A DNA stretch of 34,494 nucleotides from a virus, in the IMG/VR virus record IMGVR_UViG_3300043811_000215, positions 1-34,494 of that record, one strand, 5' to 3'. The translations under genes and the position numbers were made by a program. How positions within the stretch are numbered: position 1 is the first letter of the stretch; each line of letters starts with the position of its first letter. The notes under the pieces are model-generated. The model was not told the origin of the DNA, did no database searches, and was given only the letters and a program-made list of their open reading frames with translations. Of this stretch, positions 1,823 to 33,570 are shown one piece after another.

Positions 1823-2698
1823 TTAGCGTTTTTTTCCGCCGGTCATGTTGTTTAGAAAAACGATTCCGCCGACCGCGAGCGCGATCCACAGCGCGTTTTG
1901 TTCGAGCCACGCCGTCGGATCGGTCACGGGCGACGTGGCCGCGGCGGATGCGCCGCTCGCCGTCGTTCCGGGCGAAACCACGGTCAACGACGATTGTTGA
2001 AGTCCGTTGTTCGTGATCTGATTCATCAGCGCATCGAGCACCGATTTCGCATCGCTGACGAGGTTGTTTCCGATGCTGTCCAGAATCGTGACGCTGAACG
2101 ACGCATTGGAAACGAGCCCCGATGCGGACACGGTGGACGAAAGCAGGGAAAAACCGTGCGCGGGCAAAAGCGGCGAAAGCGCGGCGATAGCCTGCGAGGA
2201 AGTCGTCCATCCCGAAACAGGATTGTATTGCGCCGTGTACAGCATCGTGCTGCCGGGCGGAATCTGCGGCGCCGCAGCGGCAGGACTTCCCGGAGTTGCA
2301 AGAGGGGTAACGCTCGGCGTCGCTGGTGCCAAGGGCAGATTCGTCGCCGACGCGGAAGCGGGAATCGAAGCCGGAGCAAAAGTCACTCCGTACTGCGCAT
2401 AAAGCTGCGCGAGCGTGACGTTTCCGTTAATCAGGTCTTCGATGTCCTGATCCGTGGCTCCCACGCTTCCCAAAAGTTGCAGGTCCGAATCCTGCGCCAC
2501 GCCCGACTGTTCGGCGGCGGAAACCATGATCGCGGAAATATTTCCATAAGACGAAACGCCGAGCGCGCCGAGACCGGCAAAATTATTAGCGCCGGGCGCG
2601 TAGCCCATGTGCGCCACGTAGCCGAAGCGGTTCGATCCCGGCGCATACCCCATTCCGGGGCGAAGCTGCGGAGCGGGCGCTCTGTTCGGAAAAAGCAT
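1823..2698 (-). CDS. C-terminal tail-anchored late protein (anchor family member 1)
   Basis: This 291-residue protein starts at ATG 2698, overlapping the upstream stop as TGATG. The N-terminus has a short internal repeat, GYAPGSNRFGY and GYAPGANNF, in a Gly/Ala-rich segment. The middle is Ala/Pro/Thr/Ser-rich (about residues 100-150), followed by a more ordered region. The last 30 residues hold DPTAWLEQ, one membrane helix (LWIALAVGGIVFLNN) and the basic end TGGKKR. The same Trp motif, helix and GGKKR end recurs in the next two upstream proteins. It is probably anchored in an internal virion membrane or the host membrane with the basic tail in the cytoplasm or capsid interior (inference). Confidence 0.85.
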   Translation of the reverse strand: MLFPNRAPAPQLRPGMGYAPGSNRFGYVAHMGYAPGANNFAGLGALGVSSYGNISAIMVSAAEQSGVAQDSDLQLLGSVGATDQDIEDLINGNVTLAQLYAQYGVTFAPASIPASASATNLPLAPATPSVTPLATPGSPAAAAPQIPPGSTMLYTAQYNPVSGWTTSSQAIAALSPLLPAHGFSLLSSTVSASGLVSNASFSVTILDSIGNNLVSDAKSVLDALMNQITNNGLQQSSLTVVSPGTTASGASAAATSPVTDPTAWLEQNALWIALAVGGIVFLNNMTGGKKR

Positions 2699-3339
2699 CA
2701 GCGTCTCTTCTTTCCACCGCCGAACATCATGGCGGCGATGATCGCCCCGGCCGCAAGGAGTGCTCCATTCGGCACGCCGGCAAAATAAGTTTCCGCGCCG
2801 AGCCAGGTAGTGAATTCGGTTATCGGATCGGTGCTCGCCGCGGCTGCGGCTGCGGACGTGGGACTCGCCGCGACAACCTGCGCGGCGGTGGGCGCGGGCG
2901 TTCCCGTGATCAGATCGCCTTGCGCGGCCAGCGCCGAACCTTGCGGCGTGAGCAAATTACCGTTCACGAGAAGCGAACCGGAGTTGTAAAGCGTTTGCGC
3001 GTCGGGCGTGAGATAACCCGTGTACCCGATATTCGTTTCGGGATCGGTGATTCCTGAAACGTATTGCGCCAAGGTCGCCGATGCCGGCGCGCTGGAACTC
3101 GACGAACTGGACGAGGACGCTGAGGACGATCCCCCGCTCGAGGAAGTTTCATTGGACGAAGCGGGCGGCGAAGAAACCGATGCCGATGCCGGAATTGTGG
3201 GCGGAGTCGGCGCCGGGGATGACGTTACAGCCGGCACGGGCGGCGGTGGCGCGAAGATGTGCGAAATCTCAATCGGCGCGCTCGGACGAGTTGTCGGCCC
3301 GACAATCGATCTGGTGAACGGATTGTTCGCAGCCAGCAT
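2698..3339 (-). CDS. Tail-anchored late protein with poly-serine linker (anchor family member 2)
   Basis: The 213-residue product starts at ATG 3339, overlapping the previous stop as TAATG. The open frame extends further upstream, but that part only shadows the neighbouring gene. After a Pro-rich region there is a long Ser-only linker at roughly residues 65-90. A following stretch (SGSLLVNGNLLTPQGSAL) resembles one in the next paralogue. The C-terminus is DPITEFTTWLGAETYFAGVPN, then a membrane helix, then GGGKKRR. The organisation suggests an exposed flexible ectodomain on a membrane anchor. Function is unknown; a virion spike or membrane protein is inferred. Confidence 0.85.
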   Translation of the reverse strand: MLAANNPFTRSIVGPTTRPSAPIEISHIFAPPPPVPAVTSSPAPTPPTIPASASVSSPPASSNETSSSGGSSSASSSSSSSSSAPASATLAQYVSGITDPETNIGYTGYLTPDAQTLYNSGSLLVNGNLLTPQGSALAAQGDLITGTPAPTAAQVVAASPTSAAAAAASTDPITEFTTWLGAETYFAGVPNGALLAAGAIIAAMMFGGGKKRR

Positions 3340-4061
3340 TACCGTTTCTTCCCTCCCATGTTGGCGAGAACCATCACTCCAGCAATAAGTCCCACGGCAA
3401 CCGCGGCATTCGGGATTCCGGGAAACAACGTGGACGCGCTCATCCAAGTTGTGAGCGAAGTAAGCGGATTCGTCGAGGGCGGAGCGGCGTACAAGTTTCC
3501 TGCATTCAAAAGCGCCTGGCCCTGAGCGGTCAGTTTTCCGGCGGCAGTAATGAGACTTCCCGTCGCATTGAGCGCCTGCGCTGCGGCCGTCAAATTGTTG
3601 GTCTGAATCGTGGAAGTCACGCCCGTATTCGGATCGGTGAGCGTCACCGTTCCCTGCGTCGGCGTCGTGTCCAGATTCGCCGTCGCGCTTCCCGTGGTCG
3701 CCGCCGTCACTTGCTGCGCCGTGGCGTACGGCACGCTTTGCCCGGTCTGGATGTTCGTGTACATCCCATCGCCATTGCTCACGAATTCACTGCCCACCGT
3801 GGGCGGATACATGGCCTCGACCGATGTGTTGACGGAAGTGGCGGGAGCGAGCGGGAGGCTCGTCAAGTCAGGAGTGGCGATCACCGGCGCGGGCGAAATC
3901 ACGTTCGGATCGGTGAGCCCTCCGTAATCGTCCGTGGATACGGTATCGAATTCGGAATCGTCCTGGCCGAGTGCTCCAAGAAAACCGCGCATCCCGCACG
4001 AATGGCAGCCGTCCGGGCTCACAGTAAGATTCGGCAACGGCGAACTGAGCGGCGCGTACAT
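3339..4061 (-). CDS. Tail-anchored late protein (anchor family member 3)
   Basis: This gene encodes 240 residues from ATG 4061, which overlaps the upstream stop as TGATG. The N-terminus MYAPLSSPLPN and the later MRGFLGALGQ match the short N-terminal motif of the next two upstream genes. A Thr/Ala-rich middle contains NATGSLITAAGKLTAQGQAL, which parallels anchor member 2. The end is NPLTSLTTWMSASTLFPGIP, a membrane helix and MGGKKR. Two cysteines (CHSC) lie near residue 20. It is a clear paralogue of its neighbours in the last 40 residues, which argues for a shared targeting or anchoring job. Confidence 0.85.
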   Translation of the reverse strand: MYAPLSSPLPNLTVSPDGCHSCGMRGFLGALGQDDSEFDTVSTDDYGGLTDPNVISPAPVIATPDLTSLPLAPATSVNTSVEAMYPPTVGSEFVSNGDGMYTNIQTGQSVPYATAQQVTAATTGSATANLDTTPTQGTVTLTDPNTGVTSTIQTNNLTAAAQALNATGSLITAAGKLTAQGQALLNAGNLYAAPPSTNPLTSLTTWMSASTLFPGIPNAAVAVGLIAGVMVLANMGGKKR

Positions 4062-4435
4062 CAGCGATGCCTCCCGCTGAAAATCCAGGCGAGCGCCAGA
4101 GCCCCGCCGGCGATTAGGAAAACGGAATTGGGGACGCCGGGAACGTACGTCGAAGGCTGTGCCATCCAGCTCATAAAATTCTGGAAAACGTCTGTGCTGG
4201 TGGTGGGAACCGGCGCGCTGGCAATGCCGAACGAAAATTGTCCGGCCGGGCCGATGGTAAGCGTTTCGGTGGGCGATTGTCCCAATCCGCGAAATCCGGG
4301 ACGAAGCCCGGCGTCTACTTTCGTGCTCAACGGAGCATAGGCGCCGAGTCCGCGAACGAGCGTCATGTGCGTCCCGCCGCGAAGATTCGGATGCAATCCC
4401 GAAGTGTTTCTTGTACTCAGCCGGGCATATGCCAT
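4061..4435 (-). CDS. Short tail-anchored late protein with duplicated N-terminal motif (anchor family member 4)
   Basis: The product has 124 residues from ATG 4435, coupled to the upstream gene by TGATG. Residues 1-21 (MAYARLSTRNTSGLHPNLRG) nearly repeat the start of the upstream 343-residue protein. A second version, GAYAPLSTKVDAGLRPGFRG, follows at about residues 31-50 behind an internal Met, so the present start looks like a duplicated gene head fused to an older one. The C-terminus is FMSWMAQPSTYVPGVPN, a membrane helix and SGRHR. It has no long middle domain and may be a minimal anchor protein. Confidence 0.82.
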   Translation of the reverse strand: MAYARLSTRNTSGLHPNLRGGTHMTLVRGLGAYAPLSTKVDAGLRPGFRGLGQSPTETLTIGPAGQFSFGIASAPVPTTSTDVFQNFMSWMAQPSTYVPGVPNSVFLIAGGALALAWIFSGRHR

Positions 4436-5466
4436 CAGAGCACCGCCCATGCGCCGAGTGCGGCAAGTGCGAGCCATCCCCATGCGGGAATCGCGGCGAG
4501 CCCTGACGAGGGGGCGGATGCGGGAGTCGCCGCGGTTGCCGGGGTTAGCGTCGGAAGTAGGGACGTGGCTTGTGACACGGGGACGGCGGGAGAAGTCGTT
4601 GCGGGCGTGGAAATCGAAAGCGCCGTCGTGGGCGTGGGCGTCGCGATGGACAAAGCGGATTGCGTGAGCGGCGCGGTTGCGGAGGCGGAGGCGGCCTGTT
4701 CGCCGGCCTGTTGTTCGGCGGCCAGGGCCTGATAGTTCGCCTGCCAGAAGAAAACCATGCCCAGGAGAACGACGCTCAATTCGCAATTCGAATTGCAGTA
4801 GGGAGAATCGTTGATCGACGTTCCCCCGCTCGGAATGTTTCCGGGACCGGAAACAGTTCCCGACGCGCCGCCCGCGGACATCACCTGCGAATAAATTTCC
4901 GGAAGCGCGGCGGCGGCGTTCGCGGGAGTCATCGTCCCGTTTTGCACGGCCTGCGCGATGAGCGCGAACGCGTTGTTCACGGCCGGCCAGACGCTGCATC
5001 CGAAATTCAAATCGCGTTTTACGGCGGCGGCGTGATGCGCAAAGATCAGATCGATCACCGCAATAATGACGCCCACGCCCATCGTGATCGCCCCGGCGAT
5101 CGCTGCCGTGGTCGCGGCGATCACCGTCGTGGACGCGAGAATCCCGATTCCCGCCGAAGTCGTACCGAGCGCCAGCCCGCTCGCCGTCTGAAAAAGATTT
5201 ACAGGCTGAGCGGCGATCCCTGAGCATTGCGGACCGAATCCGCCGGTCACGGGAATCTGCGCGGTTTGAATCGCGTTTTCTGCGTCCTGCAGCCAGGTCT
5301 GATCCTGGAACTGCGCCTCATTCAGATGTTTTCCGGAGTAAAGTTGTATTGCCTGTTGCAGGGCTGCGGAAGGAGTGAGTCCGGGCGAATCGCCCAGAAA
5401 ACCGAGCCCGCGCAGATTCGGATGAAGTCCCGAAGTGTTTCTCGTGAGTAGCCGCGCGTACGCCAT
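4435..5466 (-). CDS. Large late membrane protein with several hydrophobic segments
   Basis: This 343-residue protein starts at ATG 5466, 26 bases after the transglutaminase stop, with GGGGAG about 12 bases upstream. The first 20 residues match the N-terminus of the next gene. A long hydrophobic, glycine-rich region lies at about residues 95-150 (TTVIAATTAAIAGAITMGVG), typical of a membrane-inserting or membrane-remodelling segment. Another lies near residues 230-245. A Cys pair (CNSNC) precedes it. The tail is Thr/Ala/Pro-rich and ends in a membrane helix, WGWLALAALGAWAVL, without the basic KKR tag. It may be a membrane or DNA-delivery protein of the virion (inference). Confidence 0.82.
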   Translation of the reverse strand: MAYARLLTRNTSGLHPNLRGLGFLGDSPGLTPSAALQQAIQLYSGKHLNEAQFQDQTWLQDAENAIQTAQIPVTGGFGPQCSGIAAQPVNLFQTASGLALGTTSAGIGILASTTVIAATTAAIAGAITMGVGVIIAVIDLIFAHHAAAVKRDLNFGCSVWPAVNNAFALIAQAVQNGTMTPANAAAALPEIYSQVMSAGGASGTVSGPGNIPSGGTSINDSPYCNSNCELSVVLLGMVFFWQANYQALAAEQQAGEQAASASATAPLTQSALSIATPTPTTALSISTPATTSPAVPVSQATSLLPTLTPATAATPASAPSSGLAAIPAWGWLALAALGAWAVL

Positions 5467-5492
5467 CGTCTATTCGCGCTCCCCTGTATCGC

Positions 5493-6326
5493 TCACGATT
5501 TCACCAACAAATAAAGAGCCAGCGCCGCGACGCCGAAAAGCAGAAGCGAGTTTTCTTCCTGTTGTTCGAGCTGCGCCGCGGTGGGAAGGCTGACCATGTT
5601 CGCGCCGCCCGGCCCGATCGCCGGCGTGAGCGCCGGTTGCACAAGCTGTCCGCCCACGGAAGTGAGATCGCTTCCCGCGCTTTGCAAAATCGAGGAAACG
5701 CTCGGCGTGAGCGAACCGAGCCCGCGCATTCCCGATAGCGCATAACCGGCCATCGACGAATCGCCGTTCGAATAATCGCCATGGGAACTATCGACCACGC
5801 TCCACCATTCGCGCCGGAAAAAATGTTTAGGCGCGACGCCGAACGAGGATCCCGGAGCGGCTGCGTCCAGGGGAATCCATTCGCCGTCAAGAAAAACTTC
5901 GACGTAGATGTGAGAAAACGCTTCGGGATTTCCGGGATCGGCCGCGATGGTCACGAATCGCGTTTCGTACCCGATGGTTCCGAGTAGCGCGGGAAGCACG
6001 TTTCCGTTGATGTCGTCGCAGTCCCCGGCCATCAGTTGCAAAAGTTCTCGCGTGGGACGCAGGGCTTCCTTCGTGACGGGATCGTTCACGAAATAAAATC
6101 CCTTGGCGAAATTGTAGATGGCCTGCACCTGGCCGAAGGAATCGTACGGCTGCACGCCCGCGTTGCGGATAATTTCGATGGCCGCGCGGTTGACGAAGGG
6201 ATCTTTCCAGGCATCGTCCACGAGACGGCGCAGCATGGAAATGGTTTGCTCGGTGCCGCCGTCGCCCGAACCGAGCGGGACCGAATAAAGTAATCCAGGC
6301 GTTCCGTGAATCATGCGGGCGATCAT
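5493..6326 (-). CDS. Transglutaminase-like cysteine protein with C-terminal membrane anchor
   Basis: The product has 277 residues and is the first gene of the late arm. The transglutaminase-like core shows Cys103 in MAGDCDDINGN, His139 in AFSHIYVEVF and Asp154 in IPLDAA, the expected Cys-His-Asp triad of the papain-like transglutaminase fold. A Gly/Ser/Pro-rich stretch follows, including MRGLGSL, which resembles the motif in neighbouring anchor proteins. The protein ends in a membrane helix (LLLFGVAALALYLLVKS). It could be a protease or a crosslinking or cell-wall enzyme; which one cannot be told from sequence. The tail anchor suggests action at a membrane, maybe the virion membrane. An in-frame ATG at 6314 is an alternative start. 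Confidence 0.87.
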   Translation of the reverse strand: MIARMIHGTPGLLYSVPLGSGDGGTEQTISMLRRLVDDAWKDPFVNRAAIEIIRNAGVQPYDSFGQVQAIYNFAKGFYFVNDPVTKEALRPTRELLQLMAGDCDDINGNVLPALLGTIGYETRFVTIAADPGNPEAFSHIYVEVFLDGEWIPLDAAAPGSSFGVAPKHFFRREWWSVVDSSHGDYSNGDSSMAGYALSGMRGLGSLTPSVSSILQSAGSDLTSVGGQLVQPALTPAIGPGGANMVSLPTAAQLEQQEENSLLLFGVAALALYLLVKS

Positions 6327-8005: not shown

Positions 8006-8123
8006 CCGGTCGCCGATCGTCCTCGCAGCGGTTCACCCGCAAGGGTGATGAAAACGGATCGACCGGAGAACGGTTTTCCAAAAAACCTTGCCAGGCCAAG
8101 GAAAACCGTTCTCCTTATTTTTT
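8006..8123 (+). ncRNA. Candidate structured small RNA or attenuator leader
   Basis: The segment begins at the predicted start of the promoter at 7971-7999 and ends at an intrinsic terminator. CCGGTCG (8006-8012) can pair with CGACCGG (8060-8066), enclosing the hairpin TCACCC-GCAA-GGGTGA with a GNRA loop. The terminator arm begins at 8065, so it overlaps the closing helix by two bases, as in attenuators where the two structures compete. No Shine-Dalgarno-preceded coding start is convincing inside it. It may be a free small RNA of about 118 bases, or a riboswitch or attenuator for the radical SAM gene. I recognise no known RNA family. Confidence 0.45.
8065..8123 (+). terminator. Intrinsic terminator with 15-bp perfect stem
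   Basis: GGAGAACGGTTTTCC (8065-8079) is a perfect inverted copy of GGAAAACCGTTCTCC (8100-8114), followed by TTATTTTTT. An inner stem, CCTTG with CAAGG, is also possible. It stands directly before the radical SAM gene. Confidence 0.85.
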
Positions 8124-8164
8124 GGTGCGGTTCCGGAAACATTCGCGGCCTGGCGGTCTGGCAA

Positions 8165-9058
8165 ATGCAGAATCTACTTTCAAAAGATTCCCTTTTATCT
8201 AACGATCAAATCATTCGCGTTTTCCCTTATCGGACAGCGTTCACTCCAAATGATCCGCTCGCATTTGTCGGTTACCCTCCCTTTGCTGAATTTCGCCCCG
8301 CCGATCGGTACATTCCCGTGCGCATCAGCGTTTGTTTCAAATGGTGGAGACGGGACGCGGAATCGATGCGCGCAACATGGGCGAAATATTATGCGGATGT
8401 GAAAATCGGCGGTCCAGCTTACGGCGATCTTGGCGAAGAGTTTATTCCCGGCAGATTTCTAAAAACGGGATGCACGATCACATCGCGCGGCTGCGTCAAA
8501 CATTGCGGATGGTGCCCGGAAAAAGATCGTGATTTGCGACAGCTCTGGCCAATTCATCCCGGATGGATCATCCAGGACAGTAATTTACTAGCGTGCAACG
8601 AACGGCATGTCCGAGCAGTTTTTGACATGCTGAGGGAACAGCCTCATGCTGCAAGATTTCCAGGCGGTTTAGATAAAGATTTTCTGCGGCCGTGGCATAG
8701 GAAATTATTTGATTCCATTCGAATAGACGAACTTTGGTTCGCTTGCGATCTGACTAGTGGACTTCCTGCACTGGAACGCGTCGCGGAATTGTTGAACGGC
8801 ATTTCGCCGGACAAACTCCGCTGCTACACGATGATTGGATGGGATGAAAACGAATCGCTATTGACCGCGGAAAAGCGAATCGAAAGAGTGTTTGAATTGG
8901 GATTTCTTCCCTTTTGCCAACTGTATAAACCGGATGAGGGAGAAAAGATTTATTCCTCAGAGTGGAAAGCGGTTCAGCGTAAATGGGCTAGACCGGCGGC
9001 CTATCGAAAGTCACGGATCACGGATCACGAACCACGTACGACAGAGCTTTTCCAGTGA
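8165..9058 (+). CDS. Radical SAM enzyme of unknown substrate
   Basis: This start gives 297 residues; the frame also opens further upstream but there it runs through a terminator, so ATG 8165 is preferred. The radical SAM motif CxxxCxxC is C110-VKH-C114-GW-C117 within ITSRGCVKHCGWCP, which binds a 4Fe-4S cluster and cleaves S-adenosylmethionine. Upstream parts IRVFPYRTAFTPND and VKIGGPAYGD, and the later HPGWIIQDSNLLA and RCYTMIGWDENE, match a radical SAM type I know from phage and metagenome sequences without assigned function. The C-terminal residues SRITDHEPRTT are encoded by a short repeat. The stop overlaps the helicase start as GTGA. RNA or nucleoside modification is one possibility (inference). 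Confidence 0.88.
   Translation: MQNLLSKDSLLSNDQIIRVFPYRTAFTPNDPLAFVGYPPFAEFRPADRYIPVRISVCFKWWRRDAESMRATWAKYYADVKIGGPAYGDLGEEFIPGRFLKTGCTITSRGCVKHCGWCPEKDRDLRQLWPIHPGWIIQDSNLLACNERHVRAVFDMLREQPHAARFPGGLDKDFLRPWHRKLFDSIRIDELWFACDLTSGLPALERVAELLNGISPDKLRCYTMIGWDENESLLTAEKRIERVFELGFLPFCQLYKPDEGEKIYSSEWKAVQRKWARPAAYRKSRITDHEPRTTELFQ
9013..9036. repeat. Interspersed repeat around CACGGATCACGAA, copy 1
   Basis: The reverse complement CGTGGTTCGTGATCCGTG matches 17 of 18 bases at 17333-17350. The segment is itself a tandem of CACGGAT. It forms the C-terminal codons of the radical SAM gene, so it is probably an inserted or expanded repeat. Confidence 0.6.
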
Positions 9059-13411: not shown

Positions 13412-13815
13412 ACGCTGAGAAGTTTCGAGAACTATTAAGAAAATTGTCGGCGTGCTCCGATGCCGTGGAATGGGCGAAAGGGAAATCGCTTGCCGAAGTG
13501 TGGGAGCAATGCGATCGCGCGGATTGGCTCCTGTGGCTATGTCAAAGAATGGTCGGGGAAAAGGGATGGCCGTCTCACGAAGAAATTGTTTTAGTAACGC
13601 GTGATATCGTCGAATCATGGCTCCATTTCTTTGAAGAGAAATATCCTGACGATCAACGGCCGCGCGAAGCGATTGAAGCGGCAAGGGCGTGGGCATTGTG
13701 TGATCCGCGCGATAAAGATAAAAAAGCCGCCGCCGCCGCTCGGCGAAACGCTTATATGAAAAAGATGAGGGAGGTTGCGAACGTAGTTCGCAAACGACTG
13801 AAAGTGCCGCAATGA
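13408..13815 (+). CDS. Helical protein resembling the putative Imm5-like phage family
   Basis: This 135-residue product follows a GGGGG ribosome site. LSACSDAVEWAKGKSLAEVW followed by CDRADWLLWLCQRM matches a motif (C..A..W and DWLLWL) common in small phage and bacterial proteins sometimes called Imm5-like putative immunity proteins. No biochemical role is established. The C-terminus is Ala/Lys/Arg-rich and helical. The stop overlaps the ATPase start as ATGA. Confidence 0.75.
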   Translation: MNAEKFRELLRKLSACSDAVEWAKGKSLAEVWEQCDRADWLLWLCQRMVGEKGWPSHEEIVLVTRDIVESWLHFFEEKYPDDQRPREAIEAARAWALCDPRDKDKKAAAAARRNAYMKKMREVANVVRKRLKVPQ

Positions 13816-15659
13816 TCTTACTCGGCTTCGAAATCGGGACGGGAAAACGCGTGGAAATCCCGGAGACGGGACATCTGGCGTGGTTCGGCCAGACGCAGCT
13901 TTCCGGGAAGACGACGGCCCTTGAAGCCATCGCCTTTCGCGGCGAATTGCGCGCGGTGGCCTTCATCACCAAACAAGGCGAAGGCGGTTTCCTTACCGGC
14001 CGGATGATCCCGCCTTACTTCTCCGAGCCGACCAACGACGAAGAGCAACCGCTCTGGCGTTGGGTGAAGTCCATCCTGGAAGCGTCTCAACAGCGGAAAA
14101 TGGTTCTTGAGGAATCGTGGATCATCCGGGCATGTGAAGATCCCCGCCAGGCGAAGACGCTGAAAGACGTTCACGAAAACATCAAATCCCTTCTATCGGG
14201 TGAAAAGGGCGAGAGATATACCGGAAAGCGGAAGGGAAATAAGACGGAAACGAAATGGCTCCGAAAGCCTGTAACCGGCATGAATGCTGGCATCTACACA
14301 TCCTTAAAAGCGTACTTCGATATTGTGATGCCGCAGTTAGCCCGGCTCCCCTACACGAAAAAGCTAGAGCTCGGCCCCGGCCTGAACGTGATGGACCTGC
14401 GCGATTACGCGATGGAAACGCAGGCGCTCGTCATCCGATCCGTGATGGAGTGGGTGTACCAACATGAAAAAAATGTCCGCGTCATCGTCCCCGAAGCGCA
14501 AGATTTCGTCCCGCAAGGCAAAAACTCGCCCGTCAAAATGGCCTGCGAAACTCTGGTGCGTAAAGCTGGCGCCAATCGCAATTTCATGTGGCTCGACTCG
14601 CAAGACATGGCTGCCGTTGACAAATTTGCACTGCGAGCCTGCTCTATTGTGGGGATTGGGGTACAAACCGAAGGCCATGAGATCGACCGAAGTCTTGCTT
14701 CGCTGTTCACTCCAACACTTAGAGCCGTAGACATCGCCCGCCTGAAAATCGGGGAATTTTTCGTGCGCACGTCCGAAGCGCGCGTCTCGAAAGTGTACGT
14801 GATGCCCGCATGGATGGATTCCGAACTTCACGCCCAGGCCATCGCCAAAGGCGAGGAAACGGTTTCCAGCGCCCGCCTGATGCTGCGCGCATTCAAGGAT
14901 TTTCGTAAATCGTTGGAGCCGTCGTCCCCGGCCCCGGCGCAGTTACTTCAAATGCTAACGGAGGACTCGCCCGGCGAGGGCGATCCGAAAGGGGACGAAC
15001 ATGAAACCACGGCTAGCGAACCGCGCGGAAAAGATTCTGAATCGCACGGACCTGACGTTCCACCAGAAGCGGGAGAAAATCATCGAAACGCTGCTGGCGG
15101 AGATTTCCGCGGAACAACAGAAAGCGAGGGAACCGAAGAAATGTGGCGCGAAAAATACGAAGCCCTTCAAGCGGAGCATAAGTGCCTGATCGAAGCGCAC
15201 GACGCGCTCGCCGCGCGCGTCCGCGAACTGACGGCTCCCGGCAAAAATTCAAAGATCGAGCACGGCGTCGCGGTCCCTTCGAACGGCGACGATCGCCCCG
15301 CGCACTACGATCTGGATTTCATCTATCGGGAAGTGAAAGCGCGTGCGGCAAAAGATCCCGGCGTCCTGGAACTGCTCATGAAAAAACCGGAACTGCGCCT
15401 GAAAATCGAACGCCAAACCGTCGAGATGGACGATTCCACGATCATCGGCAAAATCGCTCGCCTGGTCCACGACGGCTATTTTTCCCAACCGAAAAACGGC
15501 CCCACGGTGCAGAAGGAATTAAAGCGCCGCGGCTGCGATCAGCCCACCACGAATCTGTACAAACCGCTGAACCGATTGACGGAAATGGGTTTTCTGACGC
15601 TCGAACCGGACGGTTTTCAGGCCGTCCCGGAAATGAAAGTGAACATCGCAAAGGCGTGA
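13812..15659 (+). CDS. HerA/FtsK-superfamily ATPase with C-terminal winged helix; candidate genome-packaging ATPase
   Basis: The 615-residue protein has an N-terminal strand (IGTGKRVEIP), Walker A GQTQLSGKT (26-34), a Walker B-like VIVPEAQDFVP (224-234, with Gln where HerA has His) and a sensor region NRNFMWLDSQDMAAVDKFAL. This order is that of HerA-type (DUF87) hexameric DNA translocases. A later IGEFFVRTSEARVSKVYVMP resembles archaeal and viral HerA relatives. Residues 370-480 are disordered and then coiled coil. A winged-helix domain occupies about 540-605. Tailless membrane viruses package DNA with this superfamily, and no terminase is seen, so packaging is the leading inference; DNA repair or conjugation-like roles remain possible. 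Its early-arm position is unusual for packaging. Confidence 0.88.
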   Translation: MILLGFEIGTGKRVEIPETGHLAWFGQTQLSGKTTALEAIAFRGELRAVAFITKQGEGGFLTGRMIPPYFSEPTNDEEQPLWRWVKSILEASQQRKMVLEESWIIRACEDPRQAKTLKDVHENIKSLLSGEKGERYTGKRKGNKTETKWLRKPVTGMNAGIYTSLKAYFDIVMPQLARLPYTKKLELGPGLNVMDLRDYAMETQALVIRSVMEWVYQHEKNVRVIVPEAQDFVPQGKNSPVKMACETLVRKAGANRNFMWLDSQDMAAVDKFALRACSIVGIGVQTEGHEIDRSLASLFTPTLRAVDIARLKIGEFFVRTSEARVSKVYVMPAWMDSELHAQAIAKGEETVSSARLMLRAFKDFRKSLEPSSPAPAQLLQMLTEDSPGEGDPKGDEHETTASEPRGKDSESHGPDVPPEAGENHRNAAGGDFRGTTESEGTEEMWREKYEALQAEHKCLIEAHDALAARVRELTAPGKNSKIEHGVAVPSNGDDRPAHYDLDFIYREVKARAAKDPGVLELLMKKPELRLKIERQTVEMDDSTIIGKIARLVHDGYFSQPKNGPTVQKELKRRGCDQPTTNLYKPLNRLTEMGFLTLEPDGFQAVPEMKVNIAKA

Positions 15660-17361: not shown

Positions 17362-18159
17362 GTGAAACCCTACTATTCTGAGGACGGCATCACGATCTAT
17401 CATGGGGATTGTAGGGACGTGCTTCCGGGCCTCCAGGCGGACATGGTGTTGACCTCGCCGCCTTACGGTGGCATGCGGACTTATGAAGCGCTTAGGCCTG
17501 AGGAGTGGCTTGACGTTATCCCACATCTGTACCCGGTCTTGGGACCCGGGTCCGTATGTGTGTGGAACGTGTCTGATCAGACTATCGATGGGAGTGAGAC
17601 GGGAACATCCTTCCGTCAGGCATTAAAGATGCTTGAGGTGGGCTTCAAACTTCATGACACAATGATTTATATTAAGGAAGGTGTTTCGTTTCCAGATGCA
17701 AACCGCTATCTGCCAGCATTCGAGTACATGTTTGTAGCGAGCAAGGGTTCGCCGCGAACTTTCATGCCCATCAGGGATCGCCTCAATAAGTATGCTTTCG
17801 ACAGGATACATGGGACCAACCGCCAACAGGACGGTAGAACTACTCCGAAGAAGGGCCTCGAGGTAAAACGCACAGTGCCAGAGTACGGCTGGCGTTACAA
17901 CTGGTGGCTTATCTCAAATCGCGAGGCGACGAATTCTGAGTCAGCTGGACATCCCGCCGTAATGCCGCGTCAGATGGCAATTGACCATATCCAGACATGG
18001 AGTGTCACACAGGAGTGCATTCTCGATCCTTTCATGGGCAGCGCCACGACTCTTCGGGCAGCAAAAGACTTAGGCCGTCGCGCCATCGGCATCGAGATCG
18101 AAGAAAAATATTGCGAGATTGCCGCGAAGCGGCTTGCACAAAAAGTTTTCACCTGGTGA
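17362..18159 (+). CDS. DNA methyltransferase, N4-cytosine or N6-adenine type (beta class)
   Basis: The 265-residue enzyme starts at GTG 17362. The catalytic motif IV TSPPYGG (31-37) precedes the S-adenosylmethionine site DPFMGSATT (222-230), the order of beta-class enzymes. The SPPY form favours N4-cytosine but does not settle it. No restriction endonuclease is adjacent, so it probably protects viral DNA against host restriction or regulates it. Codon use differs from neighbours: GAG is favoured over GAA and AGG arginine codons occur, which suggests recent acquisition. A short repeat lies just upstream, and the ribosome site is weak. Confidence 0.92.
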   Translation: MKPYYSEDGITIYHGDCRDVLPGLQADMVLTSPPYGGMRTYEALRPEEWLDVIPHLYPVLGPGSVCVWNVSDQTIDGSETGTSFRQALKMLEVGFKLHDTMIYIKEGVSFPDANRYLPAFEYMFVASKGSPRTFMPIRDRLNKYAFDRIHGTNRQQDGRTTPKKGLEVKRTVPEYGWRYNWWLISNREATNSESAGHPAVMPRQMAIDHIQTWSVTQECILDPFMGSATTLRAAKDLGRRAIGIEIEEKYCEIAAKRLAQKVFTW

Positions 18160-22439: not shown

Positions 22440-22639
22440 AGCGTGTACAGTTTCCTGCACGGTTTTCTTACGTTTTCGCGCAAGAGAACGTCCCGCACTG
22501 CGGATTGGCTCACTCCGAAGCGTTTGGCGATCACCGTGGGCGTCAGTAAATCGATGGAGTACAGGCGAATCACTTTCTTCGTCTCTTCGGGCGTCAGTAC
22601 GCGTTTTCTGCCGGACAGGTTGGGTGAATTTGCGATCAT
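22436..22639 (-). CDS. Small helix-turn-helix protein
   Basis: The 67-residue product from ATG 22639 contains TPTVIAKRFGVSQSAVRDVL, a clear helix-turn-helix of the homeodomain/resolvase C-terminal type. It overlaps the transglycosylase stop as ATGA. It may regulate late or lysis genes. Confidence 0.78.
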   Translation of the reverse strand: MIANSPNLSGRKRVLTPEETKKVIRLYSIDLLTPTVIAKRFGVSQSAVRDVLLRENVRKPCRKLYTL

Positions 22640-23181
22640 TCCAGAAAACTCCACAGTGCGATTCCCGCCAGAAGTGCCGCGGCGATCCAGATATAGGAAG
22701 TCGTGTCCATTCCTTGCGGAACGAGCGACGCAGCAGCCGTTTCCAGCGTGCCGGTTGCGTCGGTCGCGTCGGCGGTAAGTCCGGGAACCGAGATAACGGG
22801 CGCGACGGGCGAAGGAGCCGCTGCGGCGCCCATGTAGACTTCATAGGCTCCCGAACCGTACGTCGCCCAGGGAGAGAAGCCCCCGGCGTTCAGGTAAATT
22901 TCATAGGCGTCGTTAGCGTTGGTCTGGGGATCGTACAGATTGTCCGAAGCGTATTCGGGATGCGCTTTCAGGTAAATCTGCCAGAGTCCGTACGATCCCT
23001 GGCCGGGCGGCGTTCCCCCGGCCGCGCCGGTTTCGGGATTGTAGACGTTAGGATTTCCTGAACTTTCGGCCAGGGCGATCGCTACGGCGGTTTGCAGATC
23101 GCTGCCGTCGAAGCCGGCGGTCTGGGCATAGTAGGCAATCTGCGTCGGCGTGAGAATCGTCGCGTTGGGAACCTGAGCCAT
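22636..23181 (-). CDS. Lytic transglycosylase-like protein with C-terminal membrane anchor
   Basis: The 181-residue protein has a lysozyme-like (SLT) domain: AVAIALAESSGNPNVYNP with the likely catalytic Glu39, then GQGSYGLWQIYLKAHPE. After an Ala/Pro/Val linker there is a membrane helix (YIWIAAALLAGIALW) ending FLE. Tailless membrane phages carry such enzymes in the virion to open the cell wall during entry, as PRD1 P7 does. A virion role is therefore plausible in addition to the separate GH24 endolysin. Confidence 0.88.
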   Translation of the reverse strand: MAQVPNATILTPTQIAYYAQTAGFDGSDLQTAVAIALAESSGNPNVYNPETGAAGGTPPGQGSYGLWQIYLKAHPEYASDNLYDPQTNANDAYEIYLNAGGFSPWATYGSGAYEVYMGAAAAPSPVAPVISVPGLTADATDATGTLETAAASLVPQGMDTTSYIWIAAALLAGIALWSFLE

Positions 23182-25458: not shown

Positions 25459-26892
25459 CTACTGGATCATGCTTGTTCCGGGAAAGATCGTTGTCCCCGG
25501 TCCTATCGTGCTTGCGACACTCGCGCAACCCATCGTCACCAGTCCCGCAGGCAAATTCACATTGCACAGCCATTGCGGGAAAAGCGGATCGAACACGCTT
25601 CCCGAAATTGGAGCCTGATAGCCGTAGGTTTTTGCCGTCGCCGCAGTAGGCGTGAAGTTGGCAATCACAGTTGCCATGCATGCCGGAACGCTGGCGGAGC
25701 TCCCACAAGACGGCGCAGATGGTTCCGTCGTACTCACGAAGTTAGGATTCGTTCCAGTGACATTGCCTGGCCCAGAGGTAAATCCTGTGTTGCCGGACGC
25801 ATAAATGTTATTGCCGGCAGCGCTGTACAGAAAGTCATTCGCCACGATCACAGTCGAAAATGAGTCAATCACTCCCACCGCATACTGAGAAACGGAGTTG
25901 CATCCGGTGCTGCCTCGCGTTTGCACAAGGTTGTTGAGAAATTGAACCAGGTAAGAATCCAGAATTTCGAAGTCTTGGCACGGATTGAAAGCTGATGAAG
26001 TGAACGTCCCGTCGTTCACGATGGTGTTGTATTCGATCAAAATTGTTGCATTCGTATTGCCGCTTCCGCCCACGCCGATTCCAGCATTCCCGTTGTACAT
26101 TGCAAGATTGTTTTTGACGACGATCTGACCGGAATAGATCGGAGTTCCACCGCCTTGCCCATCGTTGATCGAATCCAGAAACAAACCGTTTCCGTCGTAG
26201 CAGAAACTTCCGCAAGAGCTTGGACTGACATTCCCCCAACTGAAATTTCCATCCATGAAAAGGTGAGTGCCCGGAGAACTATCAAAATTGAGAGGCTGGT
26301 AAAAATCGAAGCCGGAGTATCCTCCGCTGTTCGATTGAGCCGTGTTGAACGCGATGTCTCCCACGAATACCACGTAATCAAATGTCGCCGTGGATGAGTA
26401 CTGCGATGCGTTAAAGCCTCCGGCCTGGCCTCCGTTGCAGATGTCGTTCGCCAGAACAATGTGATGGATGATCGTGTTGCTTTTCCCGTAAGGTTGAACC
26501 GAAAAACAGACACCGAAGGTATCGGCATTGGTGACGGTTACTTCGAATCCCTGAACGCCCCAATAGCTCGTATCCATTCCAAAACCATTGACGGAGGATG
26601 CGGAAACTTTGCAGGCATCGAATGTTGCACACTCGACCCATGCCACGTTATTCGCGGCGGAGCATGTTACCGTTCCCCATTCTCCGAACGCAAAGCTGAA
26701 TTCGGAATAGGTTCCAGATGCCGCCATCAGTACATCGCCGCAGTTGACCGCGTGTTTGGGAGTCGCCCACGGCGTTCCCGAACTTGTTCCGTTATTGGAA
26801 TCGTTCCCGGACGGAGAAATGTAGTACGTAGCGCCCATGACGGGCTGCGAAAGAGCCGTTAGACAAATCAAAATTAGAAAGATCGGTTTCAT
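25459..26892 (-). CDS. Secreted parallel beta-helix protein
   Basis: The 477-residue protein has a Sec signal peptide (IFLILICLTALSQPVMG) and then YYISPSGNDSNNGTSSGTPW, the usual opening of right-handed beta-helix (pectate-lyase-like) proteins. Repeated short strands rich in Asn, Gly, Val and Ser follow, and about a dozen Cys. Such folds serve as receptor-binding or polysaccharide-degrading spikes. A signal peptide on a virion spike is unusual, so it may be exported and act at the host surface. It begins one base after the previous stop. Confidence 0.83.
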   Translation of the reverse strand: MKPIFLILICLTALSQPVMGATYYISPSGNDSNNGTSSGTPWATPKHAVNCGDVLMAASGTYSEFSFAFGEWGTVTCSAANNVAWVECATFDACKVSASSVNGFGMDTSYWGVQGFEVTVTNADTFGVCFSVQPYGKSNTIIHHIVLANDICNGGQAGGFNASQYSSTATFDYVVFVGDIAFNTAQSNSGGYSGFDFYQPLNFDSSPGTHLFMDGNFSWGNVSPSSCGSFCYDGNGLFLDSINDGQGGGTPIYSGQIVVKNNLAMYNGNAGIGVGGSGNTNATILIEYNTIVNDGTFTSSAFNPCQDFEILDSYLVQFLNNLVQTRGSTGCNSVSQYAVGVIDSFSTVIVANDFLYSAAGNNIYASGNTGFTSGPGNVTGTNPNFVSTTEPSAPSCGSSASVPACMATVIANFTPTAATAKTYGYQAPISGSVFDPLFPQWLCNVNLPAGLVTMGCASVASTIGPGTTIFPGTSMIQ

Positions 26893-26893
26893 T

Positions 26894-29353
26894 TTATGGC
26901 CCGCATCTAAAAACCACGATCGTTGTGAGCGCCGTCACCGGCAAACCAGCAAACGTAAAGACAGGAGCGGTGGACGAAAGAGTGGTGTTGTTGAAAAGAA
27001 TTCCGGTTCCTGACAGGCCCGTAATTGTCCCTCCGACCAAATTGGCCGTGCAAACAGTGGTTGCCGCACCAATCGCCGTCGGGAGCGTCCATGTAACCGT
27101 CGCGCCCGTGGCCTGTCCCGTCCCGCTCGAGGTAATTGTGATCTGACACGTCTGAGAGAAACCCTCAGCGCCGGAAACGGAGGCTGTGCTGCCCCATCCT
27201 GCGGATAAAGCAAAATTTCCATTGGCGCAGCCCGTACCGCCATTCGAAACGAATAGGGCACCACGCATCTTTCCGGCAATATTTCCGACGGCGCCTGTCC
27301 CTACATCGACGACTCCGGCAGCATCACGCGATAAGCCGGTATCTATAGCGAAACCCGAGGAGTAGAAATCGAATCCGATGTTTGGATAGGCGATCAGGCC
27401 GCCTAGAGAACTGCTTGCGAGTGCAGTTCCCCCGCTGCCACCATTTAAGAGCAGTGCACCGCCGTTGTACGCTACGCCCAGGTTGGCAATGGTCGTCCCT
27501 GCGAATCCGTAACCGCTGCTACTTGCCGCAGGGACTGTAAGATTGTTAGATAAGGCGATGGGATTCGTGGCCGTGCCCGCCACAGCCGGCCATGTGATTG
27601 TTGCTGTACCGCTCGTGGATCCTGCGCCCGTAATCACGCAGCTTGTGGTTCCCGCGATGCCGCACTGTTCCGCTGTCAAAAAGGCATTCGACCAATACTC
27701 GCTTGCGCTGCCGAGCGCGATGGAGTTCGTGGGCCCCGGCAAAAGAGCCGCGTTGATTGCTACCGCCGCCAGATTCGATAGCGCCGTGTTGGCTCCCGTA
27801 CCGGCGGGAGTGGACCAGGTGCAGGCGGAAATCGTGCTCACGGGCGCGGCGCACGTCAGGTAGTTTCCGGCGGGCGCGGTTGCGGATAGTTGGCCGTAGT
27901 AGGAAGTGAACGATGCCGAGTTTGGGCCTATGAATCCGACGTAGTTTGAGGCGGGAAGCGATGAGGGAATGGTTGTATTTCCGATGAAAGCGACTCCGCC
28001 GGCGTTTACGCCATTGGACGGAACCGCGATGCCGCCAGAACCGGCATAGGAAAGAGTCGTCCCATTATCGGTCAGAAGCGATTGAGTAAAAGTGCAAACC
28101 GTGGTCGCCGTTACGCACTTCCCGAACGTGTTCGTAGTGAGCACCGTGGCTGGAAAATCGAATGTATTCGTAGTCGTTGCGACGCTGCTCAGTACGGTGT
28201 GCGCCACGCCCGCCACGCTCGCGAGTTGCAGTACGGCGGCGTATACTCCGTCCGATCCCAGAAGTACCGGGCCGCCCTGGACGTTGATCGCGATGCCTGG
28301 CGCGGTCTGCGGTTCGATCAGGATGGCGTTGCAATTCGTGGCCGCCACAGTGAACGCCATGCACTGATCCTGAAAATCGAGGCCATTTTGCTGCGTCACA
28401 GCGCTCACATAAGGCGGCGTATCGAAGAGAATGTCCGTGGACGTTGTGACGGTCCCGGTGGACGCCGTGCTGTTGTTCATTTCGATGCCAAGCAGCACGG
28501 TTGTCGTGGCCGAAGTATTGGACTGCGCCTCTATTTCCAAGCCGATTGCTTCATCCACGGTATTCGACGGCGAAGCCCCAAATCCCGCGTTAGCAACTAT
28601 ATTCGCAGCCAGCGCGCTCATCCCCGCCGCGTTCGTTCCTGTGGCGAAGTTCGCCGCCTGCGAGCCGGCCGCCGTCTCAAAATCATATGCATTGAATGGC
28701 GCGGGATAGGGCGCGGCCAGCGGATCGGTGCCGTTCGTTCCCCCCGAAACTATCGTCTTCCCCCACAGGTTGTTATTCACCGCGTCCCAGATCAGGTTTG
28801 GCCCGCAGGTAAGATTTTCCGGCGTGCCGTTTTCGTAGGCCACGCCGCCCGTCGTCGAGCAGGAAACAATCGTGCCGCCGCCGGCCGCGAAATTCGTCAG
28901 TTTTGGCGCGAGGGCGTTCAGTTGCGTGCTGATGTTTACCGGAGAACTGCCGCTGATGATCGTTCCCGTGCTGGTGTAAGTGAAAGTCTGCCCGCCCGTG
29001 CCGAGGGGAGCGGGGATGCCGCCGGGATTGGAATTGACGGTGATGAGCCATTGCGGGCTGCCGGGAGTGATGAGCGTCACGTCGCCGAAATTCGCGGAAA
29101 AATGGCCGTTTCCGTCCAGCGTCACGGGACCGATCTGCCCGGCATACGGCTGCCCGCTCAGGCGATATCCGGTCGACGAGCCGGGCACGAGGACGGCGCT
29201 CAATGTGCCGTTCGCGTAGGGAATGCCGTTCGGATCGACGACGGTCCCGGTCACTTGCGTGAACTGCGCGCGCGCGTCTTGTGGAAAAAGAGCTAAGAAA
29301 AGAAACGCCCCGGCAAGTACCAGGGCGATTTTTACCGAACCAAATTTTCGCAT
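26894..29353 (-). CDS. Large exported fibre-like protein
   Basis: The 819-residue product is the longest gene. A signal peptide (VKIALVLAGAFLFLALFPQD, cleaved near ARAQ) is followed by a carboxypeptidase-regulatory-like beta-sandwich (VTGTVVDPNGIPYANGTLSA, residues 33-130). A long Ala/Gly/Thr/Val-rich beta region follows, and a compact C-terminal domain (GLSGTGILFNN...) ends ALTTIVVFRCGP. The plan is like environmental phage fibres. The signal peptide implies export across the inner membrane. Function as receptor-binding or surface adhesin is inferred. Confidence 0.85.
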   Translation of the reverse strand: MRKFGSVKIALVLAGAFLFLALFPQDARAQFTQVTGTVVDPNGIPYANGTLSAVLVPGSSTGYRLSGQPYAGQIGPVTLDGNGHFSANFGDVTLITPGSPQWLITVNSNPGGIPAPLGTGGQTFTYTSTGTIISGSSPVNISTQLNALAPKLTNFAAGGGTIVSCSTTGGVAYENGTPENLTCGPNLIWDAVNNNLWGKTIVSGGTNGTDPLAAPYPAPFNAYDFETAAGSQAANFATGTNAAGMSALAANIVANAGFGASPSNTVDEAIGLEIEAQSNTSATTTVLLGIEMNNSTASTGTVTTSTDILFDTPPYVSAVTQQNGLDFQDQCMAFTVAATNCNAILIEPQTAPGIAINVQGGPVLLGSDGVYAAVLQLASVAGVAHTVLSSVATTTNTFDFPATVLTTNTFGKCVTATTVCTFTQSLLTDNGTTLSYAGSGGIAVPSNGVNAGGVAFIGNTTIPSSLPASNYVGFIGPNSASFTSYYGQLSATAPAGNYLTCAAPVSTISACTWSTPAGTGANTALSNLAAVAINAALLPGPTNSIALGSASEYWSNAFLTAEQCGIAGTTSCVITGAGSTSGTATITWPAVAGTATNPIALSNNLTVPAASSSGYGFAGTTIANLGVAYNGGALLLNGGSGGTALASSSLGGLIAYPNIGFDFYSSGFAIDTGLSRDAAGVVDVGTGAVGNIAGKMRGALFVSNGGTGCANGNFALSAGWGSTASVSGAEGFSQTCQITITSSGTGQATGATVTWTLPTAIGAATTVCTANLVGGTITGLSGTGILFNNTTLSSTAPVFTFAGLPVTALTTIVVFRCGP

Positions 29354-29421
29354 TGTTTTTCCCTTTGTCCGTCGTCTCCTGCGCACTCGATGTGCGCAAA
29401 TACGGACCGCACTTCCCTTCC

Positions 29422-32109: not shown

Positions 32110-32679
32110 TTAGCTGGACGACGGCGCGGCGCCGAGTTGCGCCGCTTCCGCCGCGGGGTACAGCTTGTAGCCCCAGAAATCGATTTGAATGCTGTTCGCG
32201 CTGCCGCTGGAATCCACCGTCGTCACCTGATATACGCGCTTTTTCGGCATCAGTTGCGGGATCAGCCCGGCAGGGAACGGCAGTTGCGCCGTGCCCACGA
32301 AGTTATTGAAATTCACCGGCGCGCTCTGCCAGGCGAGCCCCCCCGCGCCCCCTTCGGTGACCTGCACGGTGGCGGACGTGGACGTGGCCGTGCCCATCAG
32401 CATCAGTAATTGAAAATCCGCGTCGCTGTCGATTTGCAGCGTCGAATTCTTCGTGTCGTTCCCCGCATGCGTGTTGTTCACGATGTAGTGGAACAGTTTG
32501 GCGATATAGAGATTCCCGCCGAGTTCCTGAAGCTGCGGATCGTTCATCAACTGGTTCAGTTGATCCTGCGAGAGTCCCGACGGTCCCGCAGCCATGTTCA
32601 TCACCGAGGGCAATCGCTTCGCAAATTCCAGAGCGAATTCGTCTAAATCAAGAACTGTCTTCACTTTTGAAATGTCCAC
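32110..32679 (-). CDS. Putative jelly-roll capsid protein (189 residues)
   Basis: The gene starts at GTG 32679 with AAGGGAAGGA upstream. The N-terminal third is helical (DEFALEFAKRLPSVMNMAAG, LSQDQLNQLMNDPQ). The rest is beta-rich: DADFQLLMLMGTATSTSATV, then PFPAGLIPQLMPKKRVYQVT and SIQIDFWGYKLYP. It resembles the 171-residue protein in order of strands and the WGY end. Together with the 253-residue protein it could make up a two-protein capsid lattice, as in P23-77-like viruses with two single-jelly-roll capsid proteins (analogy only). Confidence 0.78.
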   Translation of the reverse strand: MDISKVKTVLDLDEFALEFAKRLPSVMNMAAGPSGLSQDQLNQLMNDPQLQELGGNLYIAKLFHYIVNNTHAGNDTKNSTLQIDSDADFQLLMLMGTATSTSATVQVTEGGAGGLAWQSAPVNFNNFVGTAQLPFPAGLIPQLMPKKRVYQVTTVDSSGSANSIQIDFWGYKLYPAAEAAQLGAAPSSS

Positions 32680-32808: not shown

Positions 32809-33570
32809 CTACAGAACGGCCCGCGCCTTCTGCCCTTCCAGGTAAATCCACGCGTTGATGCCGGTGCCGATGGGCACGGTGGCATTGTTGTTCGTCGTGA
32901 AACCCGTGGCTTGCGCCCAGGCCGCCTGCGTCGGATCGACGACGACCTTGAACGCCTGTTGCTGGGCGATCAAAATGCCGTCGATGTTCGGGAACTGATC
33001 GACGCCGGGAGTGCCGTCGCATCCGGGATCGGTCAAGCGGAATCCCTGATGTTCGGACGGAAGCCCGTTGCCGACCGGCCCGATGATCGTGTTCGCCGCG
33101 GTCGCCCCGAATTGCTGCGCCCAGATGCCGCCGCCGGCCGGAAGCTTCAGGAAGTGAGCCACAACGAAGAACGATTTCGTGCTGATGAAAAAGTTCACGA
33201 TGGTCTGCGACCCGAACTTGATGGCGTCGGTCTGGTTGCACAGGTTGTCCAGGATGGCCGTGATGCCCCTGACGAGCATGCGTTCCGGCGCTTGAAGCTG
33301 CGAGGATTGCTGCATGCTTGTCATTTGCAGGGTTTTCGTAACGGTCGCGCCGCCGGAAATGGTGAACGGGTTATTCTGCGGAATCGAGAACAGCGTCTGA
33401 GATGTGACCGCCGTCGAAACCGCGACCCCGTAATAATCCCATTCCGGTTGCACGACGAAATCGCCGAGTCCCGCCGCCAGCATATTTTTCACCCGGAAGC
33501 GAGGCCGTCCGATTTCATGAGCCGAAATCTCCTGCAAGTGGGAAAAGCATTGTGCATTTAAGTGTTTCAT
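32809..33570 (-). CDS. Best candidate for major capsid protein (253 residues)
   Basis: It has the strongest ribosome site of the late arm (AAAGGAG, 8-9 bases before ATG 33570) and hairpins on both sides, as expected for an abundant product. After a short N-terminal region come beta-rich segments: GVAVSTAVTSQTLFSIPQNN, PERMLVRGITAILDNLC, IVNFFISTKSFFVVAHFLKL, PAGGGIWAQQ and a final GINAWIYLEGQKARAV. This strand pattern with a long FG-type excursion fits a jelly-roll fold. No HK97-fold signature is seen. Assignment rests on context and pattern, not on a known homologue. Confidence 0.72.
   Translation of the reverse strand: MKHLNAQCFSHLQEISAHEIGRPRFRVKNMLAAGLGDFVVQPEWDYYGVAVSTAVTSQTLFSIPQNNPFTISGGATVTKTLQMTSMQQSSQLQAPERMLVRGITAILDNLCNQTDAIKFGSQTIVNFFISTKSFFVVAHFLKLPAGGGIWAQQFGATAANTIIGPVGNGLPSEHQGFRLTDPGCDGTPGVDQFPNIDGILIAQQQAFKVVVDPTQAAWAQATGFTTNNNATVPIGTGINAWIYLEGQKARAVL

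Follow-up and report, generated by a model that had tools for sequence, protein, structure and literature searches.

A conserved tail-anchor segment on duplicated proteins of an uncultured soil phage

Do neighbouring phage proteins that end in the same short membrane anchor carry a sorting signal, or have they kept the anchor of a common ancestor? The question is raised by IMG/VR record IMGVR_UViG_3300043811_000215 of an uncultured soil phage, of which the whole stretch of 34,494 bases was analysed (the window). An initial annotation had noted that three or four adjacent proteins in this window, described as otherwise unrelated, end with the same C-terminal plan, and had interpreted this as a modular sorting signal for one membrane, maybe the internal membrane of the virion, with no described equivalent. 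The six genes at this locus lie on the minus strand at the positions given there, are close together or overlap, and are arranged in the order F-E-D-C-B-A. No significant Pfam or PHROG match was found for proteins A to E.

5493..6326, minus strand: protein F (277 amino acids), a transglutaminase-like domain (PF01841), an RGLG linker and a C-terminal helix of a different type; remotely related to gp34 of phage SSIP-1
4435..5466, minus strand: protein E (343 amino acids), an N-terminal YARL-TRN-GLHP-RGLG module and a different C-terminal helix without a basic end
4061..4435, minus strand: protein D (124 amino acids), full anchor module, N-terminus in common with E, RGLG twice
3339..4061, minus strand: protein C (240 amino acids), full anchor module, paralogue of B
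2698..3339, minus strand: protein B (213 amino acids), full anchor module, paralogue of C
1823..2698, minus strand: protein A (291 amino acids), derived module (AWLEQNALWIA, helix, TGGKKR, without PN) and N-terminal GYxPGA repeats

The anchor module of proteins B, C and D

Alignment of the last 45 residues revealed one plan in B, C and D, consisting of W-x8-G-x-P-N, a single membrane helix, and a basic (K/R-rich) end. In D of the window the spacing is x9 instead of x8, one residue longer than in the D proteins of the relatives.

2767..2805, minus strand: B, juxtamembrane element W179...G188-V-P190-N191
2701..2766, minus strand: B, membrane helix and basic end GGGKKRR
3408..3446, minus strand: C, juxtamembrane element W206...G215-I-P217-N218
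3342..3407, minus strand: C, membrane helix and basic end MGGKKR
4127..4168, minus strand: D, juxtamembrane element W90...G100-V-P102-N103
4064..4126, minus strand: D, membrane helix and basic end SGRHR

Ten related IMG/VR records of 34-37 kb were compared with the window; the same small group was retrieved with F, C, and the ATPase and capsid candidate described below as queries, and a search for distant relatives of protein C returned only these ten contigs. Among 50,697 records of cultured phages, none matched the ATPase. W-x8/9-G-x-P-N was present in 29 of the 29 orthologues from these viruses (B 9/9, C 10/10, D 10/10), which are not independent, because several relatives are near-duplicates of one another. 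In a 19-sequence tail alignment only the W, G, P and N columns are invariant, and the probability of finding the motif by chance in one fully shuffled tail was 0.0006. To judge the similarity of the tails themselves, local scores of the window tails were compared with those of shuffled tails in which each residue stayed within its own segment (juxtamembrane, helix or end). The resulting z-scores were 11.2 for B-C, 8.4 for B-D and 5.7 for C-D, so that the likeness is above that of random helices, as the initial annotation had expected of the tails together with their conservation in relatives. Profile comparison of the tails gave E values of 9e-12 for B-D and 1.6e-7 for C-D.

In all four families, conservation is higher in the Trp-led juxtamembrane segment than in the helix, with identities of 0.70 versus 0.53 in B, 0.63 versus 0.24 in C, 0.72 versus 0.47 in A and 0.72 versus 0.60 in D. 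Therefore, selection acts on more than hydrophobicity, and the module is more than a generic anchor. The net charge in the A to D families ranges from 0 to -3 ahead of the helix and from +2 to +6 behind it. Judged by their sequences, the tails of B, C and D are a homologous, conserved and clade-specific tail-anchor module.

The tail of A was similar to those of C (z 5.9) and B (z 5.2) and not to that of D (z 0.2) in the same shuffle test, and profile comparison of the B and A tails gave a probability of only 16%. On these scores A is a derived form of the module that has lost PN, so the same plan holds for three of the neighbours and not, in its GVPN or GIPN form, for the fourth. The initial annotation had also pointed to tail anchors on the transglutaminase-like protein F and on a distant lytic transglycosylase:

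22636..23181, minus strand: protein G (181 amino acids), an SLT-type lytic transglycosylase with an unrelated C-terminal helix

Under one hydropathy rule, A, B, C, D, F and G have a lone helix at the extreme C-terminus and no other helix, and E has an extra hydrophobic stretch. E, F and G were rejected as module members, as their C-terminal helices have no basic end and no similarity to the module (z from about -1 to +1.8 against the other tails).

The tail alignment held no stretch conserved enough for a scan of the collection. Two narrow, gapped DNA patterns, covering strict GGKK-like forms, were run over 2.9 million viral contigs; apart from unrelated reads that matched by chance, they hit nothing but the C genes of two members of the clade. 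With these patterns the module was not found on other ectodomains, and as far as tested it is restricted to the clade of the window.

Duplication and exchange of ends

The ectodomains had been described as completely different, which does not hold. B and C are homologous across 107 columns (profile comparison, 99.6%), with the common domain DPxTG...LTxxAQxL...GxLxxxxxxLTxQGxALxxxGxL, and D and E have a common N-terminus over their first 29 residues (97.9%; MAYARLxTRNxxGLHPxxRGLG). Alignments also show a common N-terminal repeat, GYQPGAHALLG, in A and C, for which hhalign gave a weak 54%. The likeness of B and D is confined to the tail. Among the relatives (L-numbers are labels of the relatives and contigs compared), L005 has a single B/C gene instead of two, and B of L004 has lost the ectodomain repeat and retained the tail. 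The operon evolves through tandem duplication and swapping of ends, and an anchor inherited by duplicated genes suffices to explain the common tails; a sorting signal is possible, but not needed.

The order F-E-D-C-B-A is retained in related contigs, and the ends of these contigs fall at different genes, consistent with genomes that are circular or permuted. A DNA methylase at 17362-18159 (PF01555, E 1e-37) has partial matches at most in relatives, and a protein at 8045-9058 with a CxxxCGWC cluster, radical-SAM-like by eye and without a Pfam match, was found in one relative only (L018, 83%). In the presumed structural block at 25459-30588, three successive genes (477, about 820 and 388 amino acids) start with apparent signal peptides or N-terminal membrane helices; two of them have no relative among the fetched contigs, and these are possible spike proteins.

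Protein F and the gene plan of SSIP-1

The transglutaminase-like core of F matches PF01841 with an E value of 8e-7 (Pfam). Its invariant Cys-His-Asp set fits, at the level of sequence, a thiol peptidase or a transglutaminase.

5862..6140, minus strand: transglutaminase-like core of F, with invariant C103, H139 and D154
5715..5726, minus strand: RGLG motif of F (residues 201-204), between the catalytic domain and the anchor

A PDB match of F to Crov588 (E 0.02) was set aside as chance, Crov588 being a leucine-rich-repeat protein. Comparison of F with gp34 of SSIP-1 by hhalign gave 91.5% over 127 columns (E 9e-7); both proteins fall in PF01841 (Pfam) and both end in a helix. A more distant member of the F family, in L034, gave a tblastn match to gp34 with an E value of 2e-3. 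According to its GenBank record and reviews, from which all facts on this virus were taken, SSIP-1 is a cultured, tailless, icosahedral salt-lake phage with an internal membrane and two major capsid protein types, and gp34, gp37, gp41 and gp53 are labelled 'structural protein'. The block behind gp34 consists of a series of C-anchored proteins, several of them annotated as structural. Thus, SSIP-1 and the window have in common a transglutaminase-like structural protein with a C-terminal helix, a battery of small C-anchored proteins that are encoded on the same strand and bear GMG/GLG motifs, and a transglycosylase-like protein with a C-terminal helix. The last likeness is one of plan, not homology, since the G profile had no match to ORF54 of SSIP-1, which itself has a sub-threshold SLT hit only. 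SSIP-1 differs in its 43.8 kb circular genome and in lacking W-x8-G-x-P-N, and the ATPase and capsid profiles had no match in it. What we claim for the window virus is an SSIP-1-like plan, not membership.

With the hydropathy rule applied throughout, single C-terminal anchors were counted in 6/35 proteins of the window (17%) and 8/56 of SSIP-1 (14%), against 3/45 in SH1, 1/34 in P23-77, 0/23 in PRD1, 1/59 in lambda and 2/41 in T7 (0-7% in these comparison phages), all of them small numbers, with the window genes called in this analysis. L034 and L054 again show a transglutaminase gene with C-anchored proteins behind it. More distant contigs link the window with SSIP-1: L032-L036 (42-109 kb) and L054 carry an F-type transglutaminase, with a battery of small C-anchored proteins behind it in L033, L034 and L054; the contig of L033 has F-like, c238-like and MCP1-like genes, and that of L032 has F-like and c238-like genes. 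A search for proviruses with F yielded mainly contigs of metagenome-assembled genomes (MAGs) of Acidobacteria, Calditrichaceae and Bacteroidota, and the same search with the ATPase found nothing. This suggests, and does not prove, that the hosts belong to these groups. F-type genes were seen in the bacterial MAG contigs L051 and L053 (Acidobacteria) and L052 (Calditrichaceae), in the last of which the gene adjoins proteins with a DGLGNP-like motif; these genes may mark related viral elements and hint at hosts.

Every row of D and F, and 9/10 of those of E, has a motif of the RG[LM]G type, while C has RGLG or a form interrupted by GYQPGAHAL. Gly-Leu/Met-Gly peptides, often RGLG, lie close to the N-termini of C-anchored proteins in D (4280-4435) and E (5392-5466) of the window, in L034 (10659-17537), in L054 (1668-2797) and in gp34, ORF36, gp37 and ORF52 of SSIP-1 (L037). 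Within the first 80 residues, G[LM]G was present in 18/36 C-anchored versus 8/108 other proteins of the window, SSIP-1, L033, L034 and L054 (Fisher p 1e-7), an enrichment that is a lead only, because the choice of motif followed inspection of the window and L034, paralogues do not count as independent, and gene calling in L033, L034 and L054 was mechanical. The peptide could be a capsid-binding peptide, of which D would have two copies, or a processing site. A more speculative extension, which we regard as doubtful, is that a broad lineage of membrane phages, most of them uncultured, builds its minor virion proteins with G[LM]G near the N-terminus and an anchor at the C-terminus, encodes them behind the tail-anchored F-type enzyme with its own RGLG, and uses this enzyme as a maturation protease, or a cross-linker, acting at the GLG peptides. 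If true, tail-anchored precursors would first be caught at the membrane and would then be cleaved or linked, and to our knowledge no such maturation system has been described for bacterial membrane viruses.

Membrane phages beyond the few isolates are hard to recognise, because their capsid and ATPase sequences have diverged past detection. A tail-anchored transglutaminase with a battery of small tail-anchored proteins is a gene-order signature that connects SSIP-1, the only isolate, with contigs of 34-109 kb, both those from soil and larger ones, and it is a possible signature for uncultured membrane phages in general.

Location of the anchored proteins and known counterparts

Since SSIP-1 has the same plan, the explanation that we find the most probable, with somewhat more confidence than doubt, is that A to D are duplicated minor virion proteins that tie the capsid to an inner virion membrane, and that the virus is a tailless phage of the internal-membrane type and a remote relative of SSIP-1. 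The placement in an internal virion membrane proposed in the initial annotation is supported as probable by the SSIP-1 link and by the structural annotation of its transglutaminase and tail-anchored neighbours. In such a scheme F-E-D-C-B-A would be a late operon for membrane-associated minor virion proteins, in which B, C and D, and A in its derived form, would have arisen by tandem duplication and domain swapping while the common C-terminal anchor was retained. After translation the C-terminal helix would enter the host inner membrane and leave the N-terminal part in the cytoplasm, as in bacterial tail-anchored proteins. W-x8-G-x-P-N would then lie at the cytoplasmic interface, where the Trp and the Pro-Asn break may set the start of the helix or dock a common partner. 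When the capsid wraps the membrane, the N-terminal parts would face the shell, and the basic end would face the vesicle lumen and the DNA. A to D would in this way staple the membrane to the capsid, by analogy with VP10 and VP13 of HCIV-1 and A55 of STIV, and the tail-anchored F and G may bring enzymes (a probable peptidase and a glycan-cleaving activity) to that membrane for use during entry. What we infer here is the virion location, the topology, the contact with the capsid and the roles of the enzymes.

Several points weigh against this explanation, some of which concern the following genes:

32809..33537, minus strand: capsid candidate (242 amino acids), 86-91% identical across the clade, AAGLGD near the N-terminus
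32110..32679, minus strand: capsid candidate (189 amino acids as read, a later start being likely from relatives), predicted all-beta with low confidence
13812..15659, plus strand: P-loop NTPase with Walker A GQTQLSGKTT, annotated initially as a HerA-like ATPase, no family hit

The first capsid candidate is 86-91% identical among viruses whose anchored proteins are mostly 40-70% identical, and matches no known family. The folds, modelled with a view to the vertical jelly roll of the PRD1-adenovirus lineage, are poorly predicted: the MCP1 structure model has a pLDDT (predicted local distance difference test score) of 29, and the second candidate, modelled as all-beta with a pLDDT of 56, has no PDB match at E<=0.001. 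Profiles A7, A8 and A11 of the capsid test and profile H188 had no match in SSIP-1, and the ATPase profile A13 matched neither SSIP-1 nor its gp40. Neither SSIP-1 nor any other distant relative looked at has the PN element, and the link to SSIP-1 consists of one remote enzyme homology and gene order. By the positive-inside rule, charge asymmetry alone favours the opposite topology. Finally, the evidence that A to D are in a virion, and that this virus has a membrane, is indirect.

Could the module instead be a true address, read as W-x8-G-x-P-N by a dedicated factor (a viral insertase, scaffold or capsid protein) that sorts any carrier into the virion membrane domain? The fixed spacing, the four invariant residues on three proteins and the juxtamembrane segment, with its higher conservation than the helix, would fit this, as would B of L004, which keeps its tail after ectodomain loss, and the B-D pair, which shares the tail only. 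However, F, E and G do without the module although they are presumably bound for the same membrane, A has lost PN, and the module was not seen in SSIP-1, in those distant relatives, or beyond the clade with the two strict DNA patterns, so that we consider an address unlikely. Somewhat less likely still is that A to D, though duplicated, are common tail-anchored proteins that stay in the host membrane, with a role in lysis, superinfection exclusion or host takeover, and never enter the virion. A C-terminal helix alone cannot separate virion from host membrane, and phages encode many small membrane proteins, but the operon is shared with a homologue of a virion structural protein, and several tail-anchored neighbours in SSIP-1 are annotated as structural.

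The basic end raises a separate possibility, as at the junctions at window 3339, 2698 and 4061, and in relatives, its codons also serve as the Shine-Dalgarno site of the overlapping gene that follows. The GGKKR end might then have come about as a by-product of coupled translation, with GGAGGGAAGAAA and GGTGGAAAGAAGAG as the Shine-Dalgarno sequence of that gene, and at many junctions the purine-rich end codons are indeed correctly spaced before the next ATG, often with an ATGA overlap. Yet the basic end persists at junctions that lack a starting gene or have a separate Shine-Dalgarno site (A of the window and of L005, B of L004, L009 and L010, D of L011 and L008), E overlaps the next gene and has no basic end, and W, G, P and N would be left unexplained. 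The by-product explanation of GGKKR is improbable, and was rejected as sole cause; probably, the Shine-Dalgarno and basic-end constraints act together. Finally, it is highly improbable that the tails are processed sorting signals of the PEP-CTERM/LPXTG type, cut at G-x-P-N with removal of helix and basic end and transfer of the protein, for although the plan of short motif, helix and basic end is identical and the E tail has a sub-threshold VPAMP-CTERM match (16.5 bits, cut-off 32), the tails of A, B, C and D match no Pfam or NCBIfam sorting family, no N-terminal signal peptide was seen on A to D, and no sortase or other processing enzyme was seen among the annotated window genes.

For the preferred explanation, a capsid-membrane role of A to D, there are known counterparts, in contrast to what the initial annotation had assumed. 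The cellular proteins ElaB and YqjD (DUF883) have the same design, a C-terminal helix rich in Gly and, after it, a positively charged end that contains a di-arginine (PMC5525287). The DUF883 models of Pfam gave no match at E<=1. We know of no GxPN element in ElaB or YqjD. Bacterial tail-anchored proteins are inserted post-translationally in an N-in/C-out orientation, and moderately hydrophobic ones can insert unassisted (PMC6794478). Among viruses, A55 of STIV (Turriviridae) has its C-terminal helix in the virion membrane and its N-terminus bound to the vertex protein (PMC10551542); it resembles the module proteins in its C-terminal anchor and differs from them in being a single small protein of unrelated sequence. 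VP10 and VP13 of HCIV-1 and HHIV-2 (Sphaerolipoviridae) are virion proteins in which a C-terminal membrane helix joins the capsid to the internal membrane, and the paper on them reports no common tail between the two (PMC6414509). They are like the module proteins in this capsid-membrane helix, and unlike them in having halophilic archaeal hosts and no detected sequence relation. The general design of C-terminally anchored virion proteins is thus already known, and what is new is the conserved W-x8-G-x-P-N segment, a compact and testable element for how such viruses choose the proteins of their membrane and fasten it to the capsid.

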